Origin: Gammaproteobacteria bacterium
GTDB lineage: Bacteria; Pseudomonadota; Gammaproteobacteria; Natronospirales; JAJUFS01
Direction: 5' to 3'
DNA length: 35,796 nt
Assembly (NCBI GenBank): GCA_029263725.1
Contig: JAJUFS010000008.1
Coordinates: 1-35,796 of the forward strand
Notes under the pieces: model-generated
The model's database searches: none
Told to the model about the DNA's origin: nothing
The model's input: only the letters and a program-made list of their open reading frames with translations
Translations under genes and position numbers: made by a program
Part shown: positions 5,495-30,139 of the stretch, piece after piece
Layout of the letters: every line of letters begins with the position of its first letter
Numbering within the stretch: the stretch's first letter is position 1

Positions 5495-5989
5495 TCAGGG
5501 CGGCGGGATGTCTTCCTTGACCGGCTTGCTCGGCTTGTGCACGCCACGCGCGAAATTCTCGACATGCTCTTCGAGGTAATCCATCAGCCAGAGCACGAAC
5601 AGCGCCACCAGAGACAGCGCGAACGCGCCCTTGTAGTACCCGAAGCCGATGGCCGACCCGATGGCGGCCAGCGCCCAGACCACCGATGCCGTGGTCACGC
5701 CGGTGAGCGTGCCCTCGCGCGAGATGATCACGCCGGCCCCAAGAAAGCCCACGCCAGTGACGACCTGGCCGAGCACGCGCGAGGCGTCGGTACCTTCGCC
5801 CATGGTCTGCATGCCGAGATGGATGAAGATCGTGGTGCTGAGGCAGATGAGGATGCTGGTGCGGATGCCTGCAGGCTTGCCGCGCAGCTGCCGCTCCAGG
5901 CCGATCATGCCGCCGCACAGCAGCGACATGCCGATCGGAATCCAGAATTCCAGGGTCAAGGGGTCGAAGAATTGCACAGCCGTCTCCAT
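5495..5989 (-). CDS. MgtC/SapB family membrane protein
   Basis: The 164-residue membrane protein shows the MgtC/SapB hallmarks: GLERQLRGKPAGIRT after the first helix, GVGFLGAGVI in the middle, and LTGVTTASVVW before the third helix. Four to five transmembrane segments are apparent. MgtC proteins in pathogens modulate the F1Fo ATP synthase and survival in low Mg2+. Many environmental relatives have no proven role. This copy lacks the long C-terminal domain of Salmonella MgtC (about 230 residues) and is closer to the short SapB type. Its start is only 7 bases after the stop of the large protease gene, so it may be the last gene of that operon. I saw no Mg2+-type leader in so short a gap. Confidence 0.9.
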   Translation of the reverse strand: METAVQFFDPLTLEFWIPIGMSLLCGGMIGLERQLRGKPAGIRTSILICLSTTIFIHLGMQTMGEGTDASRVLGQVVTGVGFLGAGVIISREGTLTGVTTASVVWALAAIGSAIGFGYYKGAFALSLVALFVLWLMDYLEEHVENFARGVHKPSKPVKEDIPPP

Positions 5990-5996
5990 GCCACGC

Positions 5997-8810
5997 TCAC
6001 TCGATCGCGCGCCGCACCCAGCCGTCCTCGTCGCGCACGATCTCGTACGCCGGCCAGTAGTGCTTGTCCGTCTTCAAGGTGATCACTTCCACGCGGCCGT
6101 CCCATTGCACCGTGGTCAGGCGCACCGGGTCGCGATGCGCCTTGCCGCGCACGGCCGCGATGAAGGCGTCGAGATCGGGCGTCGGCTTGCCATCGACTTC
6201 GAGAATGCGCCGCCCCGGGGTAAGGCCATAGCGGCTGGCCGGCGAACCGAAGCCGTAGTAGGCGACGAACACGCCCTCGCGCGGAATGCCGCGCTGGACC
6301 GCGATGTCCCGATGCGGGTTCTGCAGTTCGGCCCCGGCCCACAGCAGCACGCGGCCGGTGCCGCTGCCGTCGAGCTCGACGGTGGCCACGTCCACTTCGA
6401 TGACCTCGGAATTGCGCAGCAGCGTCAGGCGCACTTCCGGCTTCTGCACGGCAAGCTCGACGGCGCGGAAGCTGCCTACCGGCTTGCCGTCAATGGCGAG
6501 CAGCAGGTCGCCCTCCTGCAGGACTTCCGCGGCCGGCGATTCCGCCACCCGCCGCTCCACCGCCAGCACGCGCCGGTCGCGCGGCGACAGCTTCTCGATG
6601 CGCCGCGCCCATTCCTGCGGCAGGCCGATGCGGCGCGCCGCCGACAACGGCATGTGGAACAGCTCGGCTTCCAGCGAGCGCAGGCTGCCGTCCTGGCGCG
6701 CCAGCCGCACGATCTCGGCGATGAATTCCGCCGGCACGCCGGCATAGGTCTGGCCCAGCTGCCTTCCGGCCTGGTAGGCGAAGCTCGACCACAGGCCGCG
6801 CACCCGCCCGTCGGCATCGACGATCACGCCATCGCCTTCATCCAGGCGATCGACGAAACGCATGGTCTCGATGTTCGCGTCCCGGTAACGGAAGGTGCTG
6901 GACAGCGGCAGCCGCAGCGGCTCGTAGGCCTGCACGGTGCTGGAGCGCGATTGCAGCGTGAGGTCCGGCTGGAATCCGACCACCCACAGTGACTCGCCCA
7001 GCCGTGGCCGGTTGACGTCCAGCGGCGCGGCGCGCACCGGCGTGTCGCCCAGCAGTGCCGGGTCGTACTTCAGCACCACCAGGTTGTGCAGCGGATGCAC
7101 GTAAAGAACGCGCGCCGGCACTTCCACCGAACCCGCGAACGTCAGGCGCGCATCACCCAGGGAAACTGGTGCGGTGTTGCGGTCGGCCACCGCGAGTCCG
7201 CGCTCGTGATCGACGATCAGTGCGGTGCCGAAATAGTTCGGCATGCCGACGCCGTCGATCAGGTAGGGCATGTCGAACTCGAGGAAGGCCACCGAACGCG
7301 CGATCGCGTTGGTGCGCCTGTCGCCGTAGTCGGGGAAGGTGGCCGTGGCCGGCTCCGGCGTCTCCTCGCCTTCGGGGGCCGCGAGCGGCGTGCAATCCCA
7401 GAAGCCCGAGGCGTCGTTGCGCAGGCAGTTGGCAGCCGGGAACCAGCGCCAGTCCATGCTGAACACGCCCAGCACCTCGCGGCGCGGTTCGCTGAAATCG
7501 AAGAACCGCAGCCGTGCCTGCTCGCCCTGCTTCAATGCCAGCAATCGTTCGCGGAACTCGTGCAGGCGGCCGATGGGCTCGCCGTTGAAGGAAGTGATCA
7601 CGGCACCGCGCGGAATGCCGGCGCGGTTCAGCACGTAGCCGGGGTTGGCGACGTACACGCCCACCTGCGGCCGGTGCAGGTGCCGCGCCTGCTGGTAGGA
7701 AAGGTCGTGCACCACGCCGCCGCCGAACTCGAGGTATTCCGCCGGCGTGATGGCGTGCAGGTCCGTGACCGACAGCTCGAACTCCAGCGGCTCGCCGCCG
7801 CGCTCCACGGCGATGCGCAGCGTCCTGCCGACGTTGTCATCGAGCATCGCCTCGAATTCCGGGAAGCGGGTGATGAGCTCGCCGTTGATCCGCACCAGCA
7901 CGTCGCCCGGCTGCAGATGGCGATCTGCCGTGCCGCCCGGCTGGACCTGCGTCACCACCAGCATGCCGGTCTCGTCGCGGTTCGCCTTGCGTGCCAGCCG
8001 CTCGGTTTCATCACGCAGGCCGAGGCGGCGCAGCTCGTCGAAGGAACGATGCATGAAGGTGCTTTCCAGCGTGCCGCGCGGCGGCACCTCGCCGCGGCGC
8101 ACGTATTCCAGCGCACGCACCACGCGGTCCAGCGGCAGGAAGAAGCTGCTCTGCGCGGCCATGCTGCCGCCCGCATTCAGGGCCACCGCGTTGCCGCTGA
8201 TGTCCAGCACAGGCGAGCCCGACGAGCCGCCGGAAGTGCCCGAAGCCGCCTGGATGTAGAAGGTGTTGAAATCGTTGTACTGGCCGCGGCCGTACTCGGG
8301 GGCGTTGCGATCGAGCCGCGCCAGCGTGCCGGCCAGGATGGAAAGCCGCTCGCCGGCATCGTTGCCGATGACGCGGATCTCGCGCCCCACGGTGGCGCGG
8401 TCGGGACGCAGCGCGATCGACTGCGGTTCGATGTAGCGCAGCGCCTTCGGGTCGTAACGGTAGAAACCGAAGTCATGCACCGGATCGCGGTACACCGGCG
8501 TGAGCGCGACTTCCTCGTTGTTGCGGAACAGCGCCTCGGCCGTGACCGGGCCGGGCTGCACCACGTGGCGGTTGGTGAGGATGATGCCGTTCTTCGCGTC
8601 GACCACGAAGCCGGTCGCCTGCGAGGAGGCGTTCCACTCCGTGTCGAAGGCACGCGCGGCATCGATGTGGATGCTGACGATGGCGGGCGCGACCCGCTCG
8701 ATGGTGCGCGCCCAGCGCCCGTCTTCTTCCGCCGCCTGCACGGCGCCGGCAAGCAGGACGAACGCAATCGCAAACCGCGACAGCTCGAGAACCCGGCGGC
8801 TTGCTCGCAT
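5997..8810 (-). CDS. Tandem HtrA-type serine protease with four PDZ domains (Nma111/Deg7-like)
   Basis: The 937-residue protein has a signal peptide (RFAIAFVLLAGAVQAAEED), so it should act in the periplasm. The first trypsin-like domain is intact: His82 in LTNRHVV, Asp113 in PVHDFGF and Ser197 in GGSSGSPVLD. A PDZ domain follows around 285-350 (GMLVVTQVQPGGTADRHLQP) and a second around 380-440. The second protease-like domain (about 525-710) is degenerate. ALIVDHERGLAVADRNT lacks the His motif, and EGDGVIVD stands where GNSGGP would be. Two more PDZ domains follow (EVLQEGDLLLAIDGKP and YGLTPGRRILEVDGKP). This order matches yeast Nma111 and plant Deg7, not DegP/DegS. A GAGGAGG ribosome-binding site supports the ATG. 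It follows rnk by 12 bases. Substrates are unknown. Confidence 0.9.
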   Translation of the reverse strand: MRASRRVLELSRFAIAFVLLAGAVQAAEEDGRWARTIERVAPAIVSIHIDAARAFDTEWNASSQATGFVVDAKNGIILTNRHVVQPGPVTAEALFRNNEEVALTPVYRDPVHDFGFYRYDPKALRYIEPQSIALRPDRATVGREIRVIGNDAGERLSILAGTLARLDRNAPEYGRGQYNDFNTFYIQAASGTSGGSSGSPVLDISGNAVALNAGGSMAAQSSFFLPLDRVVRALEYVRRGEVPPRGTLESTFMHRSFDELRRLGLRDETERLARKANRDETGMLVVTQVQPGGTADRHLQPGDVLVRINGELITRFPEFEAMLDDNVGRTLRIAVERGGEPLEFELSVTDLHAITPAEYLEFGGGVVHDLSYQQARHLHRPQVGVYVANPGYVLNRAGIPRGAVITSFNGEPIGRLHEFRERLLALKQGEQARLRFFDFSEPRREVLGVFSMDWRWFPAANCLRNDASGFWDCTPLAAPEGEETPEPATATFPDYGDRRTNAIARSVAFLEFDMPYLIDGVGMPNYFGTALIVDHERGLAVADRNTAPVSLGDARLTFAGSVEVPARVLYVHPLHNLVVLKYDPALLGDTPVRAAPLDVNRPRLGESLWVVGFQPDLTLQSRSSTVQAYEPLRLPLSSTFRYRDANIETMRFVDRLDEGDGVIVDADGRVRGLWSSFAYQAGRQLGQTYAGVPAEFIAEIVRLARQDGSLRSLEAELFHMPLSAARRIGLPQEWARRIEKLSPRDRRVLAVERRVAESPAAEVLQEGDLLLAIDGKPVGSFRAVELAVQKPEVRLTLLRNSEVIEVDVATVELDGSGTGRVLLWAGAELQNPHRDIAVQRGIPREGVFVAYYGFGSPASRYGLTPGRRILEVDGKPTPDLDAFIAAVRGKAHRDPVRLTTVQWDGRVEVITLKTDKHYWPAYEIVRDEDGWVRRAIE

Positions 8811-8822
8811 GCGTTCGCCTCC

Positions 8823-9236
8823 TCAGCGGAAATAGTCGCCGGCGGCTTCCGGCTGGTAGACGACCTCGACGATGCGCAGCTTGCCGGTGCGGCCGCCGGG
8901 CAGCGGCCAGGCGATGGACTGGCCGACCGCAAGCCCGAGCAGCGCGCTGCCCACCGGTGCGAATACCGAGACCTTGCCTTCGCCGCGCGCATCGCGCGGG
9001 TAGACGAGCTCGAGCTCATACTCGCGGCCGCTGTCTTCCTCCACGAAACGCACCCGCGAGTTCATGGTGACCACGCCCGCGGGGATCTCCTGCGGGTCGA
9101 CGACATTGGCACGGCCGATCTCGGTCTCGATCTGCTCGCGCCCCGGGAAATCCCGAAAGGCCGGATCTTCCAGGAGGCGCTCGATGCGCTCCACGTCGAG
9201 GCTGGACAGCGTAATGGGCGGCAAGGCTTTTTCCAT
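8823..9236 (-). CDS. rnk: Regulator of nucleoside diphosphate kinase (GreA/GreB-like)
   Basis: Rnk is a small protein that binds RNA polymerase, with an N-terminal coiled-coil region and a C-terminal FKBP-like domain shared with GreA/GreB. The 137-residue product matches the usual length of about 136. The C-terminal domain shows the family segments FVEEDSGREYELELVYPRDA and KVSVFAPVGSALLGLAVGQSI, ending in the GRTGKLRIVEVVYQPEA tail. I chose MEKALPPITL, which has a GGAG sequence 6 bases upstream. The track ORF adds 34 residues that read back into the preceding pfkB gene. It sits between the PfkB kinase (25-base gap) and the protease (12-base gap), so the three are probably cotranscribed. Confidence 0.93.
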   Translation of the reverse strand: MEKALPPITLSSLDVERIERLLEDPAFRDFPGREQIETEIGRANVVDPQEIPAGVVTMNSRVRFVEEDSGREYELELVYPRDARGEGKVSVFAPVGSALLGLAVGQSIAWPLPGGRTGKLRIVEVVYQPEAAGDYFR

Positions 9237-9261
9237 TTCCAACTCTCCGTTTGACGGCTGT

Positions 9262-10194
9262 TCAGAACTCGTGGCCGAACGCTTCCCTGTAACTCTCACG
9301 GAATTCGTCCGGCGTGAAATGATGATTCTGGGTGCCATTGTGCGCGATCTTGATCGCGCCCAGCAGCGCCGCGATGCGGCCCGTGGTCTCCCAGTCGAAG
9401 CCCTGCATCAGACCATACAGCAGACCCGCGCGGTAGGCATCGCCGCAACCGGTGGGATCACGCAATTCCCGCGCCTTCACGCAGGGGATTTCCGTCACCT
9501 TGCCGTCGTGGAAGATGCGCGAGCCTTCCGCGCCGCGGGTAACGATGAGCGCCTTCACGCGCCGCGCGATTTCTTCCACGCCGAGCCCGGTGCGGCTGGC
9601 GAGCATCTGCGATTCGTAGTCGTTCACGGCGATCCAGCTCGCCATGCCGACGAATTCCAGCAGTTCCTCGCCGTTGAACAGCGGCAGTCCCTGGCCCGGG
9701 TCGAAGATGAACGGAATGCCGGCGGCGGCGAACTGCCGCGCGTGCTGGATCATGCCCTCGCGGCCATCCGGCGCGACGATGCCGATGCTGTAGCCGCCGT
9801 CATCCGGCACCACGTTGAGGTGCGAGAAATTCATCGCGCCCGGATGAAAGGCGGTGATCTGGTTGTCGTCCTGATCCGTGGTGATGTAAGCCTGCGCGGT
9901 GTAGGTGTCATCGATCACGCGGACATGCCGGCGCGACAGCCCGTTCCGCTCCATCCAGTTCGCGTAGGAAGCGAAATCCTGTCCCACCGTGCCCATGACG
10001 TCGCCCTCGCCGCCGAGCAGCTTCAGGCTGTAGGCGATGTTGCCGGCGCAGCCGCCGAACTCGCGGCGCAGCTCCGGCACCTGGAAGGACACGTTCAGGA
10101 TATGAACCTGGTCCGGCAGGATCTGGTCCTTGAAGCGGCCATTGAACACCATGATGTTGTCATAGGCGAGCGAGCCGCAGATCAGTGCAGGCAT
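9262..10194 (-). CDS. PfkB-family carbohydrate/nucleoside kinase
   Basis: This 310-residue kinase belongs to the ribokinase/PfkB superfamily. It has the N-terminal substrate loop REFGGCAGNIAYSLKLLGG and the C-terminal signature RDPTGCGDAYRAGLLYG, where Asp252 would be the catalytic base and GCG the anion hole. Proteins of this type in proteobacteria are often annotated as adenosine kinase or sugar kinase. I cannot tell the substrate from motifs alone. A strong purine-rich site (GGGGGA) precedes the ATG. It is the first gene of the pfkB-rnk-protease run and is separated from gcvPB by a 12-bp GC hairpin, so it likely has its own promoter. Confidence 0.9.
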   Translation of the reverse strand: MPALICGSLAYDNIMVFNGRFKDQILPDQVHILNVSFQVPELRREFGGCAGNIAYSLKLLGGEGDVMGTVGQDFASYANWMERNGLSRRHVRVIDDTYTAQAYITTDQDDNQITAFHPGAMNFSHLNVVPDDGGYSIGIVAPDGREGMIQHARQFAAAGIPFIFDPGQGLPLFNGEELLEFVGMASWIAVNDYESQMLASRTGLGVEEIARRVKALIVTRGAEGSRIFHDGKVTEIPCVKARELRDPTGCGDAYRAGLLYGLMQGFDWETTGRIAALLGAIKIAHNGTQNHHFTPDEFRESYREAFGHEF

Positions 10195-10283
10195 TCAGAA
10201 TCCCCCGGAAGAAACAAGATCGAATCGGAACGCGCGACGAATACATCGTCTCACGTTTGAGGAATGTTGCAAGCCAGCAGGTC

Positions 10284-10311
10284 GCGGGACGCGGGCCAAC
10301 CCGCGTCCCGC
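10284..10311. terminator. GC-rich hairpin downstream of gcvPB
   Basis: A perfect 12-bp stem, gcgggacgcggg / cccgcgtcccgc, has a ccaa tetraloop and lies 7 bases past the gcvPB stop codon. On the minus strand no clear T-run follows. It may be a weak intrinsic terminator or an mRNA 3' end stabiliser for the gcv operon. Confidence 0.6.
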
Positions 10312-10317
10312 CGGCCG

Positions 10318-11778
10318 TCAGTCCGCCGCGACCTCGGTCCACTTGAGGTCGAGCTGGCGCGCCGCGCGCACGTCGTCGAGACGGCGCACCGGCAAGGTGT
10401 AGGGCGCACCCTTGACCTTCTCGATGTCAGCCTCGGCTTCCTTGCGGATCGCGTACATGGCTTCCACGAAGCTGTCGATGGCTTCCTTCGATTCCGTTTC
10501 GGTCGGCTCGATCAGCAGGCACTCCGGCACCAGCAGCGGGAAGTAGGTGGTCGGCGCGTGGAAGCCGTAGTCCAGCAGGCGCTTGGCGAGGTCCATCGCC
10601 GTGAGGCCAAGCTCCTTGGCTTCCTTCTTGAGCGTGACGATGAACTCGTGGCTGGCGCGACGGTTCGGGAAGGCAAGCTCGAAGCCGGCCTTCTTCAGTT
10701 CCACCATGAGGTAGTTGGCGTTCAGCGTCGCGAACTCGCCGACGCGCTTCATGCCCTCGCGGCCCAGCATGCGCGCGTACACGTAGGCGCGCAGCAGCAC
10801 GCCCGCGTTGCCCATCCAGGCCGACAGGCGGCCGATGGACTGCGGCAGGTCCTTCTCGGTCAGCCAGCGGTAGGTGTCACCTTCCTTGCCGACGATGGGC
10901 GTCGGCATGAACGGCGCAAGCCGCTCGGACACGCCGATCGCACCCGAACCCGGACCACCGCCGCCGTGCGGCGTGGAGAAGGTCTTGTGCAGGTTCATGT
11001 GGATGACGTCGAAGCCCATGTCGCCCGGACGCACCTTGCCGAGGATGGCGTTCAGGTTGGCGCCGTCGTAGTACAGCAGGCCGCCCGCTTCATGGACGAT
11101 CTTCGAGATCTCCCTGATGCGGCGCTCGAACACGCCCAACGTGGACGGGTTGGTGAGCATGATGCCGGCCGTCTTCGGGCCGACCGCCTGCTTCAGCGCC
11201 TCGATGTCGACGTCGCCGTCCTTGTTGGTCGGAATCTCGCGCGCCACCATGCCGCACATGGTCGCGGTCGCGGGGTTCGTGCCGTGGGCGGCATCAGGAA
11301 CGATGATCTCGTTGCGCTCGAAGTCGCCACGGGCATGGTGATAGGCGCGAATCATCAGCACGCCGGCAAGCTCGCCCTGCGCGCCTGCCATCGGCGTCAG
11401 CGACACGCCGCCCTTCATGCCCGTCACCGCCTTGAGGATTTCCTGCAGCTCGTACATGCAGGCGAGGAAACCCTGGCCGGTGGATTCCGGCGCCAGCGGA
11501 TGGCGGCCGAGGAATTCCGGCAGCATCGCCAGCGTGTTGCAGGCCCGCGGGTTGTACTTCATCGTGCACGAGCCGAGCGGATAGAAGTGCGTGTCGATGG
11601 AGAAGTTCTTCTGCGACAGCCGCGTGTAATGGCGCACCGCCTGCAGCTCGGAGACTTCCGGCAGCAGCGGCTTGGACGTGCGGCGCAGCTCGGCCGGGAT
11701 GTCGTCCAGCGAGGCGGGCTGCGCGGGGCCCTGCGCGATGGCACGGCGGCCGGCACGGGAATGTTCGAAGATCAGCAT
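10318..11778 (-). CDS. gcvPB: Glycine dehydrogenase (decarboxylating) subunit 2, P-protein beta half
   Basis: This is the C-terminal half of the split glycine cleavage P-protein, which decarboxylates glycine on PLP and passes the aminomethyl group to lipoyl-GcvH. The PLP lysine is Lys265 in [20 protein letters not shown]. Other conserved parts are [14 protein letters not shown] and [11 protein letters not shown] start at [10 protein letters not shown] (11778), preceded by GGAGAG, giving 486 residues, typical of this subunit. The track extends the ORF to 12405, but that part is out-of-frame sequence of gcvPA. It is last in the operon, 20 bases after gcvPA. Confidence 0.97.
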
Positions 11779-11798
11779 CGTGTTCTCTCCGTTCGAAG

Positions 11799-13166
11799 TC
11801 AGGCCGCCGAGCGCAGCACGTCGTTGAGGGCCGCGGCGTAATGCGCGATGTCGGCGTCGGTGCGCGTCTCGGTCGCGCACACCAGCAGCGCATTGCCAAG
11901 CTCGGGGTAGTCGTTGCCGATGGCATAGCCGCCGACGATGCCCTTCTCCAGCAGCGCGTCGATGACCGGCTGCACCGGACGGTCCAGCATCAGCACGCTC
12001 TCGTGGAAGAAGGCGCCCTCGAAGCGGCGCGATACGCCGTCGATCTTCGTCAGCGCCTCGACCAGCTTGCGGGTCTGGCCATGCGAGACGGACGCCGTGT
12101 TCGCCAGCCCCTCGGGGCCGAGCAGCGACATGTAGATGGTCGCCGCGGTGACCATCAGGCCCTGGTTGGTGCAGATGTTGGAAGTCGCCTTGGAGCGGCG
12201 GATGTGCTGCTCGCGCGCCTGCAGGGTGAGCGCGTAGCCGACCTTGCCTTCCAGGTCCACGGTGCGGCCGATGATGCGGCCGGGCATCTGGCGCACGTGT
12301 TCCTGGCGGCAGCACATGAAGCCGAAGTACGGACCGCCGGAAGACAGCGGCACGCCGAGCGGCTGGCCTTCGCCGCAGACGATGTCCACGCCCTGCCCGC
12401 CCCACTCGCCCGGCGCGCGCAGCACGGCGAGCGCGGTCGGGTTCACGACGGCGATGGCGAGCGCGTCGTTGGCGCGCGCCCAGTCGGTCATGGCATTCAC
12501 GTCCTCGAGCACGCCGAAGAAGTTCGGCTGCGGAATGACGATCGCGGTGATGTCCTCGCCCTCGAAGGCCTTCAGCGCATCGAGCCTGGTCGCGCCGGTG
12601 CGCTCGTCGTAAGGCAAAAGCTCGAAGCGGATGTTCTGCGTGGTGCAGATCGCCTCGGCCACCTTGCGATACAGCGGATGCACGCTCGCCGGCATGAGGA
12701 TGCGGCGCGACTTCGACTTGCGATGCGAGCGCACCGCCATGAGGCAGGCTTCCGCCAGCGCGCTCGCGCCGTCATAGAGCGAAGCGTTGGAAACGTCCAT
12801 GCCGGTCAGCGACGCCATCATGGACTGGTATTCGTACAGCAGCTGCAGCGTGCCCTGGCTCGCCTCCGCCTGGTACGGCGTGTAGGCGGTGTAGAACTCG
12901 CCGCGCGTGGTGATTTCCCAGACGGCGGCGGGAATGTGGTGCTCGTAGGCACCCGCGCCGATGAAGTTCAGGTACTGGCCGTCACGCTGCGCGCGCGCAT
13001 GCATGATGCGCGAGATTTCCATCTCGCTGAGCGCTTCGGGCACGCCATGCAGGTCGTCGATGCGCAGCTCGGCGGGAATCTCGTCGAACAGCCGCTCGAT
13101 GCTGTCGACGCCGATGGCGTCGAGCATTTCGCGGATTTCATTCTCGGTATGGGGGATGAAGGACAT
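11799..13166 (-). CDS. gcvPA: Glycine dehydrogenase (decarboxylating) subunit 1, P-protein alpha half
   Basis: This is the N-terminal half of the split P-protein, 455 residues long, which pairs with GcvPB to form the active decarboxylase. It begins [15 protein letters not shown], as in other GcvPA proteins. Conserved segments include [48 protein letters not shown] and SNICTNQGL. The split form is common in Gram-positives, archaea and some gammaproteobacteria, whereas E. coli has one fused GcvP. The ATG has only a weak Shine-Dalgarno sequence. The upstream gap to gcvH holds a large inverted repeat that may affect downstream expression. Confidence 0.97.
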
Positions 13167-13196
13167 TGTGCGTGTACCGGTAAGGTTGGTTCTGTC

Positions 13197-13266
13197 GTGA
13201 GAGGCAAGACGCGAGACGTGAGACGAGCGCGAGGCGTGAGACCTCGTCTCACGCCTCGCCTCTCAC
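13197..13266. repeat. Intergenic inverted repeat GTGAGAGGC...GCCTCTCAC (copy 2) between gcvH and gcvPA
   Basis: The outer arms gtgagaggc (13197-13205) and gcctctcac (13258-13266) enclose two overlapping inner pairings. These are gcgaggcgtgaga (13229-13241) with tctcacgcctcgc (13247-13259), a 13-bp stem with a 5-base loop, and gtgagacgag (13218-13227) with ctcgtctcac (13243-13252). The inner pairings share bases and are mutually exclusive. The motif resembles the repeat at 2094-2154. It lies in the 103-base gap of an otherwise tight operon. Confidence 0.7.
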
Positions 13267-13269
13267 ATG

Positions 13270-13659
13270 TCACGCTTCGTCGATGACCTTCTGGTAACCC
13301 GCCGCATCCAGCAGCGCGTCGACGTCGGCGGCATTTGCCGGACGGATCTTCATGATCCAGCCTTCGCCGTACGGGTCGCTGTTCAGCACTTCGGGCGCAT
13401 CGGCGAGCGCTTCGTTGCCGGCGATGACTTCACCCGCGACCGGGGCGTAGATGTCGGAGGCGGCCTTGACGGACTCCACCACCGCGCAGGCTTCGCCCGC
13501 GGCGACCTGGCGGCCCGCTTCCGGCGCCTCGACGAAAACGAGGTCGCCGAGCGCTTCCTGGGCATGGTCGGTGATGCCGACCGTCACGGTGCCATCGGCT
13601 TCCTTGCGGACCCATTCGTGCGTCTTCGCGTAACGCAGTTCAGCGGGAATGTTGCTCAT
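13270..13659 (-). CDS. gcvH: Glycine cleavage system H protein
   Basis: GcvH is the lipoyl carrier that shuttles the aminomethyl group from P-protein to T-protein and the electrons to the L-protein (dihydrolipoyl dehydrogenase, not in this window). The 129-residue protein has the lipoylation site Lys65 in [15 protein letters not shown]. Its N-terminus, [15 protein letters not shown], and C-terminal [10 protein letters not shown] are family-typical. A GGGAG site lies 8 bases before the ATG. It is the second gene of the operon, 66 bases after gcvT and followed by the large inverted repeat. Confidence 0.98.
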
Positions 13660-13725
13660 CGTTTTTTCTCCCGTTTGTCGGAGTCGCGGCGTACGCCGCT
13701 CCTGGATCAGAAACTGGCCTGCGGA

Positions 13726-14814
<1,089 letters not shown>

Positions 14815-27750: not shown

Positions 27751-28065
27751 TCAGATTTTCAGGCGCTCGACAGGCACGCCGTCCCGCAGGTGGGAGGTGA
27801 CGATCTCCTCGACGTCCTCTTCGTCCACATAGGTATACCAGACGGCCTCGGGGTAGACGACCGCCACCGGGCCTTCCTCGCAGCGATCCAGGCACCCCGC
27901 GGTGTTGACCCGCACCCCGCCCTTCCCGGCCAGGCCCAGCTCCTTGACGCGCCTCTTGGCGTAGTCGCGGATGGCCGCGCTGCCGCAGCGCCCGCAGCTC
28001 GGGCGGGTGGCGCCCTCGTCGCGGATGTTGGTGCAGAAGAAGATATGGCGGCGATAGTAGGTCAT
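27751..28065 (-). CDS. Thioredoxin-like [2Fe-2S] ferredoxin
   Basis: The 104-residue protein begins MTYYRRHIFFCTNIRDEG. It has Cys11, Cys24 (with Cys27 nearby), Cys58 and Cys62 in FFCTN, SCGRCGS and NTAGCLDRCEEGP. This is the cysteine pattern of thioredoxin-fold [2Fe-2S] ferredoxins of the Azotobacter FdI/Aquifex Fd4 type. The C-terminal WYTYVDEEDVEEIV is also typical. It probably carries electrons in the cytoplasm; its partner is unknown. Its start overlaps the stop of the DUF481 gene as TGATG, so translation is coupled. Confidence 0.9.
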   Translation of the reverse strand: MTYYRRHIFFCTNIRDEGATRPSCGRCGSAAIRDYAKRRVKELGLAGKGGVRVNTAGCLDRCEEGPVAVVYPEAVWYTYVDEEDVEEIVTSHLRDGVPVERLKI

Positions 28066-28832
28066 CAGAAGCTGTACTGGAGGCTGATGGTGGTGTACGA
28101 ATCGAGCTTTTCGCGGCCAACCGGGACGTTACTGTTGCGCTTCGCCGTGAAGCTCGCCACCAGGTCGAGCTCGCCGACGAGCTGCGACGAGATCGAGGTC
28201 ACCGATTCGACATAGGTGTTGAAGTCACCGGCTTCAACCGCCATCTGGTGGGAGAAGTCCGAGCTTTCGCCGAAGTCGAGAAAGTAGCTCAGCGCCAGCC
28301 GGCCGATGTTTTCATCCTGTTCCGTGCCGTCGGTCCGGTCCGTCTGCCGGCCACCGACACCGATTTCCAAGTCAAGGCGCTGCCGGTCGCTCTGGAAGAG
28401 CCGGCGGCCATAACCTATGGCCTCGCTGGTGCGCCGATCGAAGCCCGCGAATTCGTTGGTCTCCCAGTTGAGCGCGAGAAACAGGTAGTTCTGCTCACCC
28501 AGCTTGCGGTCGGCCTTGTAACCGGCCCGGTAGTTCCGCGCGGTGGTGGTCTCGGCGTCCTTGGAATAGATCGCGTTCACGACGGCGCCGTGGCGCCAGT
28601 CGGGCCGGTCCCAGCCCAGGACGAGCTTGCCGTTCAGGTTGGTGGTGTCGGTATTGCCACGCGAGGCGATGTAACCGAGCTGGGCGCGGCCGGCGAACTG
28701 GTCGGACTCATCGGCGAGCGGCACCGTGGTACTTCCCACCGTGTCGAACTCGCCCCAGATCGAATCGGCCTGGGCAGGAGCAACCATGAGACACAATCCC
28801 GCCATCACCGGCCATCGCATTGGGAATGTCAT
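28065..28832 (-). CDS. DUF481 outer-membrane beta-barrel protein (YdiY-like)
   Basis: The 255-residue protein has a signal peptide ending near PAQADS and a body of alternating beta strands. The C-terminal residue is Phe (TISLQYSF), the classic outer-membrane barrel end recognised by the Bam complex. DUF481 segments include FAGRAQLGYIASRGNTDTTNLNGKL and NYLFLALNWETNEFAGFDRRTSEAIGYGRRLF. Related proteins are described as salt-induced outer-membrane proteins. The transport or structural role is unknown. It is divergent from the glcF-like gene and coupled to the ferredoxin gene. Confidence 0.88.
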   Translation of the reverse strand: MTFPMRWPVMAGLCLMVAPAQADSIWGEFDTVGSTTVPLADESDQFAGRAQLGYIASRGNTDTTNLNGKLVLGWDRPDWRHGAVVNAIYSKDAETTTARNYRAGYKADRKLGEQNYLFLALNWETNEFAGFDRRTSEAIGYGRRLFQSDRQRLDLEIGVGGRQTDRTDGTEQDENIGRLALSYFLDFGESSDFSHQMAVEAGDFNTYVESVTSISSQLVGELDLVASFTAKRNSNVPVGREKLDSYTTISLQYSF

Positions 28833-28906: not shown

Positions 28907-30139
28907 ATGCGAATACTTAAGCGAAAATTCCCACGCTCTTCCCCGGAAAGTCGTGATTCCTTTCATGATTTCCCCTTGCTCGACGCCGACGCCTGCGTGA
29001 AATGCGGCCTGTGCCTGCCTCATTGCCCGACCTACGCATTGCACCAGCATGAAGGCGATTCGCCGCGCGGACGCATCGCGCTGATGCAGGGACTCGCACA
29101 AGGCGAGCTCGATCCCCGCGGAAGCGCAGTGCAGCACCTCGACGGCTGCCTGGTCTGCCGGGCATGCGAACCGGTCTGTCCTGCCGAGGTTCCCTATGGC
29201 CGCCTGATAGACGCGGGCAGAACGGGGCTGTGGCGCGCGGGACGCCGCCCTTCCGCGCTGTGGCGGCTGCTGGCGGCCTTCCGCCGCACGCCGCGGCGGA
29301 TTGCGGTGCTTGAGCGGCTGCTGCTGTTCGCGCACCGCTCAGGCGTCATCGGCCTGTTCCGTCACCTGCCCGTTCCACGGCTGCGCCGGCTGGCGGCCCA
29401 CGTCACCCGCCCTCATGCTGCTCCGAAGCCTGGCCGCCACCCCGCGAAAGGCGAACGCCGCGGCGAGGTGATGCTGTTTCTCGGCTGCGTGGCCCGCCCG
29501 CTCGATGGCCGCGTACTGCACGCCTGCGTCAACGTGCTGACGGCGATGGGTTACGACGTGAACATCCCGGCAGCGCAGGGATGCTGCGGCGCCATGGATG
29601 CGCACGCCGGCGACAGGGAGACGGCGCAGCGTCTCGTCACGGCCAACGTCGCGGCATTCGGCGGCGATTCGGAGATTCTTTCGGCCGCCAGCGGTTGCGC
29701 CATCGTCATGCGCGAGTCCGGCGATGCGTCCGGCGCCCGCGTGCACGATGTGATGGATTTCATCAGCCGCCACGCCGACGCCCTGCCGGCGCTTCGACCC
29801 TTGCATGGCCGCGTGCTCGTCCATCAACCCTGCACGCAACGCAACGCATTGCGCGAAGGCAGGCCAACGGAACTGCTGCGCCGAATTCCCGATCTGGAGA
29901 TTGCGGAACTCGCCTGGCGCGACTGCTGCGGCGCTGCCGGCAGTTACCTGTTCGAGCATCCTGGCGAGGCCGACGCGCTCGGCACCCGCCTGCTCGCGAG
30001 CATCACCGCCGCGCCGGATTACCTCGTCACCTCCAACACCGGCTGTTCCATCCACCTTGCAAGGCTGCTGCGCGAGCAAGGCATGGCCGTGAAGGTACGG
30101 CATCCAGTCGAGCTGCTTGCGGAATCACTCGGCGTATAA
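28907..30139 (+). CDS. GlcF-like (Fe-S)-binding protein with CCG domains
   Basis: The 410-residue protein resembles GlcF, the Fe-S subunit of glycolate oxidase. Two [4Fe-4S] motifs are visible: C30-x2-C33-x2-C36-x3-C40 ([14 protein letters not shown]) and C81-x2-C84-x2-C87-x3-C91 ([12 protein letters not shown]). Two CCG domains follow, with [13 protein letters not shown] and [13 protein letters not shown] start at [10 protein letters not shown]; earlier ATGs lie within the divergent promoter region. GlcD and GlcE flavoproteins are absent here. The stop is 7 bases before coq7, so the two genes are likely an operon. Whether it acts on glycolate or another 2-hydroxy acid cannot be told. Confidence 0.85.

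Follow-up and report, generated by a model that had tools for sequence, protein, structure and literature searches.

A probably exported bacterial HtrA-like protease with the Nma111/Deg7 layout and a degenerate second protease domain

The window analyzed here, a stretch of 35,796 nucleotides, carries on its minus strand (5997..8810) a gene whose 937-aa product is a double-domain HtrA-like protease that is predicted to be exported. This protein is made of two protease-PDZ-PDZ units arranged in tandem and, judging from the residues found at its two active sites, the first protease domain should be active and the second one dead. Proteins of this double-domain type form a conserved family, which extends over at least two bacterial groups. 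We consider it likely that the protein is an exported serine endoprotease of the Nma111/Deg7 layout whose dead second domain serves as a scaffold, and that it works alongside DegP/DegS. A first-pass annotation of this DNA had already described a bacterial Nma111/Deg7-like double protease at 5997-8810, without giving its strand. Its coordinates were right and its observation is confirmed, and its interpretation is supported in part: the layout, the PDZ_1 type of PDZ domain and the active-site motif agree with a protein of this kind, but the protein is not an isolated bacterial oddity since it belongs to a family present in two bacterial groups.

Tandem units, active sites and export signal

Pfam, profile comparison and structural models all reveal the order protease-PDZ-PDZ-protease-PDZ-PDZ (all features given below are on the minus strand). 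The first unit comprises protease domain 1, predicted to be active (residues 32-240, 8091..8717; Pfam Trypsin_2, model and conservation), PDZ1 (residues 248-348, 7767..8069; Pfam and model) and PDZ2 (residues 353-440, 7491..7754), which Pfam assigns to the PDZ_1 type (PF12812). The second unit comprises protease domain 2, catalytically dead by sequence (residues 496-708, 6687..7325; profile comparison, sub-threshold Trypsin_2 match, model and Foldseek), PDZ3 (residues 712-814, 6369..6677; PDZ1-PDZ3 profile match and model) and PDZ4 (residues 818-915, 6066..6359; Pfam and PDZ2-PDZ4 profile match), which gives a weaker PDZ_1 match. When the whole protein was searched, Pfam detected Trypsin_2 at residues 65-211 (98 bits) and four PDZ stretches, two of which also match PDZ_1. 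Protease domain 2 is nearly invisible to Pfam in the window protein (Trypsin_2 at 21.7 bits for a cut-off of 27.6), and a Trypsin_2 match at E<=0.01 was found in this domain for 36 of 46 relatives.

Profile-profile comparison of residues 30-440 with residues 495-937 aligned 398 columns with an E-value of 2.4e-40. Among the PDZ domains, PDZ1 pairs with PDZ3 (E 4.4e-21) and PDZ2 with PDZ4 (E 3.7e-14), the match between PDZ1 and PDZ2 being weak. This full-length match between the two halves and this pairing show that the layout results from a tandem head-to-tail duplication of one whole protease-PDZ-PDZ unit. The AlphaFold2 model of the whole protein (mean pLDDT 90.6, pTM 0.86) has two protease domains and not one, and the PDB entries that match it best are those of DegQ and DegP, followed by the plant proteases Deg2 and Deg9. 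Modelled alone (pLDDT 89.5), domain 2 matches HtrA protease domains of the PDB in Foldseek with a probability of 1.00 and a target TM score of up to 0.79. The description of two trypsin-like and four PDZ domains made by the first-pass annotation is thus borne out by Pfam, by the half-versus-half profile match, by AlphaFold2 and by the Foldseek matches of domain 2. Searching the PDB by sequence and by fold revealed no experimental structure of the tandem layout.

Full-length identities range from 38 to 61% across the 45 relatives of a 46-row alignment, far beyond chance. Conservation is highest in domain 1 (mean pairwise identity of 66%); that of domain 2 (45%) is similar to that of the PDZ domains. 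Such values suggest that domain 2 is retained under a looser constraint, which fits a structural role.

Catalytic residues were followed in 66 relatives, i.e. the 46 aligned proteins and 20 more, a few of which are second copies of the same gene. The triad of domain 1, formed by His82 (8565..8567), Asp113 (8472..8474) and Ser197 (8220..8222), is invariant (66/66), as expected from the intact first triad that had been reported. Ser197 lies in a GGSSGSP motif (G195-S196-S197-G198-S199 in the window protein). This motif reads GGSSGSP in 58, GGSSGAP in five and GGASGSP in three of the 66 relatives; the pattern GXSXS is therefore found in 61/66 and GXSXG never occurs. The 23 ordinary HtrAs compared, from related genomes together with DegP, DegQ and DegS of E. 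coli, all have GNSGG, so that the view of an Nma111-type rather than a DegP-type motif holds. The GGSSGSP string was not found in the literature searched, and looking for peptide strings in papers yielded no eukaryotic sequence.

In domain 2, profile alignment of the 66 relatives places Asn545 (7176..7178) at the His position and Asn576 (7083..7085) at the Asp position, and Gly659 (6834..6836) stands at the Ser position, in a loop that is two residues shorter. The His position is occupied by N, D, E, S, A, T or Y but never by His; the Asp position is N in 59/66 and D in 7/66; the Ser position is V (n = 28), F (n = 19), I (n = 10) or another residue but never Ser. According to these alignments, the second copy has lost all its catalytic residues in the window protein and its site is dead. 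The absence of His and Ser had been noticed beforehand, and the window protein has lost the Asp as well. Two other histidines of the dead domain, His572 (56/66) and His575 (59/66), are conserved and could be either fold residues or part of a ligand site.

The N-terminus of the protein, MRASRRVLELSRFAIAFVLLAGAVQA/A, reads as a Sec-type signal peptide (residues 1-26, 8733..8810), with a basic start, a hydrophobic core and an AQA/A end. Most relatives have similar N-termini and, in one lineage (L059), the signal has a lipoprotein-type end, LTSC. For these reasons, the double-domain protease is probably exported to the periplasm via the Sec route, in agreement with the secreted form proposed initially. 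The linker between the two units contains a hairpin (7383..7445) whose antiparallel strands (residues 459-465 and 470-476 in the AlphaFold2 model) carry Cys462 and Cys473, both invariant (66/66). A disulfide between these two cysteines is probable and would be suited to an oxidising compartment.

Relationships with DegP, Nma111 and Deg7

DegP, DegQ and DegS share with the window protein the HtrA protease fold, PDZ domains and periplasmic export (predicted here), but they consist of a single unit, have the GNSGG motif and belong to a different clade, whereas the window protein has two units and a GXSXS motif. Its score with the NCBIfam model of the Do family (TIGR02037) is 113 bits for a cut-off of 416. 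In the tree of domain 1, which is unrooted, the family forms a single clade on a very long branch (support of 100/100 in the careful analysis, and of 100 in a quicker one). The double-domain proteins thus form a clade apart from DegP/DegQ/DegS, and the unrooted tree leaves undecided where this clade branches among bacterial HtrAs. The phylogeny does not place the protein inside the DegP-type set, but forcing the family together with DegP and DegQ of E. coli was not rejected (p-AU 0.226). Ordinary HtrA genes are present too in the genome that carries the window, with L077 (482 aa) as a DegP-type and L078 (386 aa) as a DegS-type ORF; therefore, the double-domain protease adds to DegP and does not replace it.

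Among eukaryotic proteins, Deg7 of plants and algae (AtDeg7, CrDeg7) has the same domain order, with an active first site and a dead second one, in about 950-1100 aa. The order protease-PDZ-PDZ-inactive protease-PDZ-PDZ is listed for Deg7 of Chlamydomonas and has also been described for that of Arabidopsis, with gene duplication and fusion followed by the loss of the second activity as its proposed origin (PMC3473262). Plant Deg7 is reported to form homotrimers via its degenerate domain (PMC4754418). Depending on the study, Deg7 is located in the plastid stroma, the nucleus or the mitochondrion, whereas the bacterial protein, with its signal peptide and invariant pair of cysteines, is presumably periplasmic. 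The plant proteases Deg2 and Deg9 match in fold and also combine a protease domain with two PDZ domains, but they have one protease domain only and share 15-16% identity with the window protein. We take the second domains of the plant and fungal proteins to carry VDRNTV-like and HP.HN-like motifs similar to the bacterial consensus.

Fungal Nma111/Ynm3, a protease with chaperone activity (PMC4877387), has GXSXS and PDZ_1 in common with the bacterial protein, but it is nuclear or cytosolic whereas the bacterial protein is presumably exported. One fungal Nma111 has been listed with the GXSXS motif (PMC7804941). PDZ_1 has been reported as a PDZ type that occurs in fungi and some archaea (PMC6411480), and in fungal but not in mammalian OMI/HtrA (PMC5982838). 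In 2018, some bacterial proteins were reported to be nearer to OMI/HtrA of yeast than to the human HtrA (PMC5982838). On the basis of the architecture, the PDZ_1 profile and the motif, in a comparison where the tree includes bacterial sequences only, shared descent of the bacterial family with eukaryotic Nma111/Deg7 is likely. Searches of the literature, whose coverage is incomplete, yielded no description of the bacterial double-domain family. As far as found, this family with the Nma111/Deg7 layout is therefore unstudied and largely unremarked.

Proposed function, origin and alternative explanations

We propose that a single protease-PDZ-PDZ ancestor underwent head-to-tail duplication and fusion, after which one copy, the first, remained an active HtrA-type protease and the other lost all its catalytic residues. 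The protein would be exported via the Sec route to the periplasm, where its PDZ domains would recognise exposed or misfolded ends of damaged or signalling proteins and domain 1 would cleave these substrates. The dead domain 2 may act as an oligomerising scaffold, a role transferred here from plant Deg7, which resides in a different compartment. The whole would constitute a second quality-control or processing protease alongside ordinary DegP/DegS. Since the yeast relative Nma111/Ynm3 cleaves a specific regulator, Roq1 (PMC11914429), a role in dedicated processing is just as plausible as one in general quality control.

Three other explanations deserve consideration. The protein could be merely a DegP-type protease to which a degenerate tail was fused, functionally redundant with DegP, since its first half has the same fold and PDZ-PDZ layout. 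We regard this as very improbable given the fully supported separate clade and its very long branch, the different active-site motif, the score far below the Do-family cut-off and the coexistence of DegP-type and DegS-type genes in the genome. A convergent architecture, i.e. the duplication of a DegP-like protease-PDZ-PDZ gene in bacteria independently of Nma111/Deg7, would still give an exported protease with a dead scaffold; it would find its starting material in the single protease-PDZ-PDZ unit that bacterial DegP/DegQ already have, and it agrees with the non-rejected union with E. coli DegP/DegQ in a tree restricted to bacterial sequences. However, the family has GXSXS and a strong PDZ_1 match in common with the fungal type, and in ordinary HtrAs these features are absent or weak (PMC7804941, PMC6411480, PMC5982838), and the reported proximity of bacterial proteins to yeast OMI rather than human HtrA (PMC5982838) also argues against convergence, which we hold to be unlikely.

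The third explanation concerns domain 2, which might instead be a pseudoprotease with a ligand-binding or regulatory function and turn domain 1 on or off, for example by binding a metal through His572 and His575. Degenerate trypsin-like domains with other functions do exist, such as MamO of magnetotactic bacteria, and the two histidines have been conserved even though the catalytic His is gone. However, the aligned counterpart of the HPLHN segment in domain 1 is DPVHDF, whose His112 is invariant too, so the histidines of domain 2 may be fold residues, and the structural matches point to no ligand site. We regard such a function of domain 2 as unlikely and prefer the reading of an exported protease whose dead second domain would serve as a scaffold.

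If this reading is extended to the eukaryotic proteins, the Nma111/Deg7 duplication may have happened in bacteria, the exported family with its invariant pair of cysteines being the ancestral form, a proposal that we make tentatively, at somewhat less than even chances. If true, the duplication did not arise within plants or fungi, and the cytosolic, nuclear and plastid proteins of eukaryotes descend from an exported bacterial protease whose second domain was already dead. In the literature found, the layout of Deg7, accounted for by a duplication followed by decay, is discussed only for plants, algae and fungi. A conserved and probably exported bacterial family whose second site is dead in 66/66 relatives gives a direct way to date this duplication. 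It also provides an experimentally accessible bacterial protein with which to study why a dead protease domain persists and how the periplasm uses it beside DegP.

Distribution and genomic context

PDZ_1 (PF12812) matches all 46 aligned members of the family, the window protein reaching 89.8 bits for a cut-off of 28. A search with this profile in 274 genomes of the class of the window revealed about 17 genomes with ORFs of about 930-1030 aa (44-85 bits), the ORFs of ordinary HtrA length reaching 36 bits at most. A second sample, apparently from the same class, gave seven of 114 genomes. Roughly 6% of the sampled genomes of this class therefore carry the family. Among the relatives, one copy (L037) belongs to a cultured bacterium, Thioalkalivibrio sp. 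XN8. In a sample of the window's own phylum, five of 399 genomes matched, all of them in the window's class. The other group, the phylum of L044 (labelled Deltaproteobacteria), shows a very different match rate (39 of 141 genomes, about 28%) and its members are grouped on a separate branch of the tree (SH-aLRT 96); for both reasons, we take it to be a phylum different from that of the window. A mobile or viral origin was discarded, the protein having no match in plasmids (E<=1e-40), phages (E<=1e-10) or viral contigs. The labels of two records, L048 ('Rhodospirillales') and L032 ('Actinobacteria'), look wrong, and both carry the gcv synteny described below. L048 was not retained as a member of Alphaproteobacteria because the sample of its class includes genomes from that of the window and appears to represent this same class.

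The protease gene, delimited from the ORF and the alignment of relatives, starts with an ATG at 8810 and stops at 5997. Direct reading of the sequence identifies a ribosome-binding site, GGAGG (8818..8822), 7 nt before the ATG. Long ORFs are also present on the opposite plus strand, but a family, a ribosome-binding site and conserved residues characterize the minus-strand ORF alone, so a spurious ORF or an overlapping antisense gene was rejected. Upstream is a gene of the Rnk/GreA-GreB type (8823..9338; Pfam and sequence), whose stop lies 12 nt before the protease gene and whose 3′ end is overlapped by the GGAGG; it is preceded by a PfkB-family kinase gene (9262..10194; Pfam and loci of relatives) that is syntenic in many relatives. 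Downstream is a gene of the MgtC family (5495..5989; Pfam). Since these four genes are on the same strand and separated by very short gaps, they likely form an operon.

In the window, gcvT, gcvPA, gcvPB and the PfkB kinase gene (9262-14814, minus strand) precede the protease gene, an order common to many relatives of the class. In these relatives, the protease gene usually follows the gcvP genes, often with PfkB in between, and a gcvP2 gene was found upstream in 24 of 28 loci (L024-L051), several of the others being cut by contig ends. The gcv and PfkB neighbors were not detected beside members of the second phylum, for most of which the flank covers only about 1.5 kb. The gcvT-gcvPA-gcvPB-PfkB order contains no protease-related gene and was not retained as a functional clue. 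The Rnk/GreA-type and MgtC genes are adjacent to the protease gene only in the window, with no matches in the syntenic relatives; therefore, the local gene order was rearranged in the lineage of the window. Two loci of relatives have unusual structures: (i) at L050:4051-6731, the gene is split into two frames near 5544-5547, by an assembly frameshift or because the gene is broken, and (ii) contig C27 of G013 carries, downstream of a full gene, two extra fragments of the PDZ4 end (27987-28223 and 29404-29706), one of which contains an in-frame TAG.
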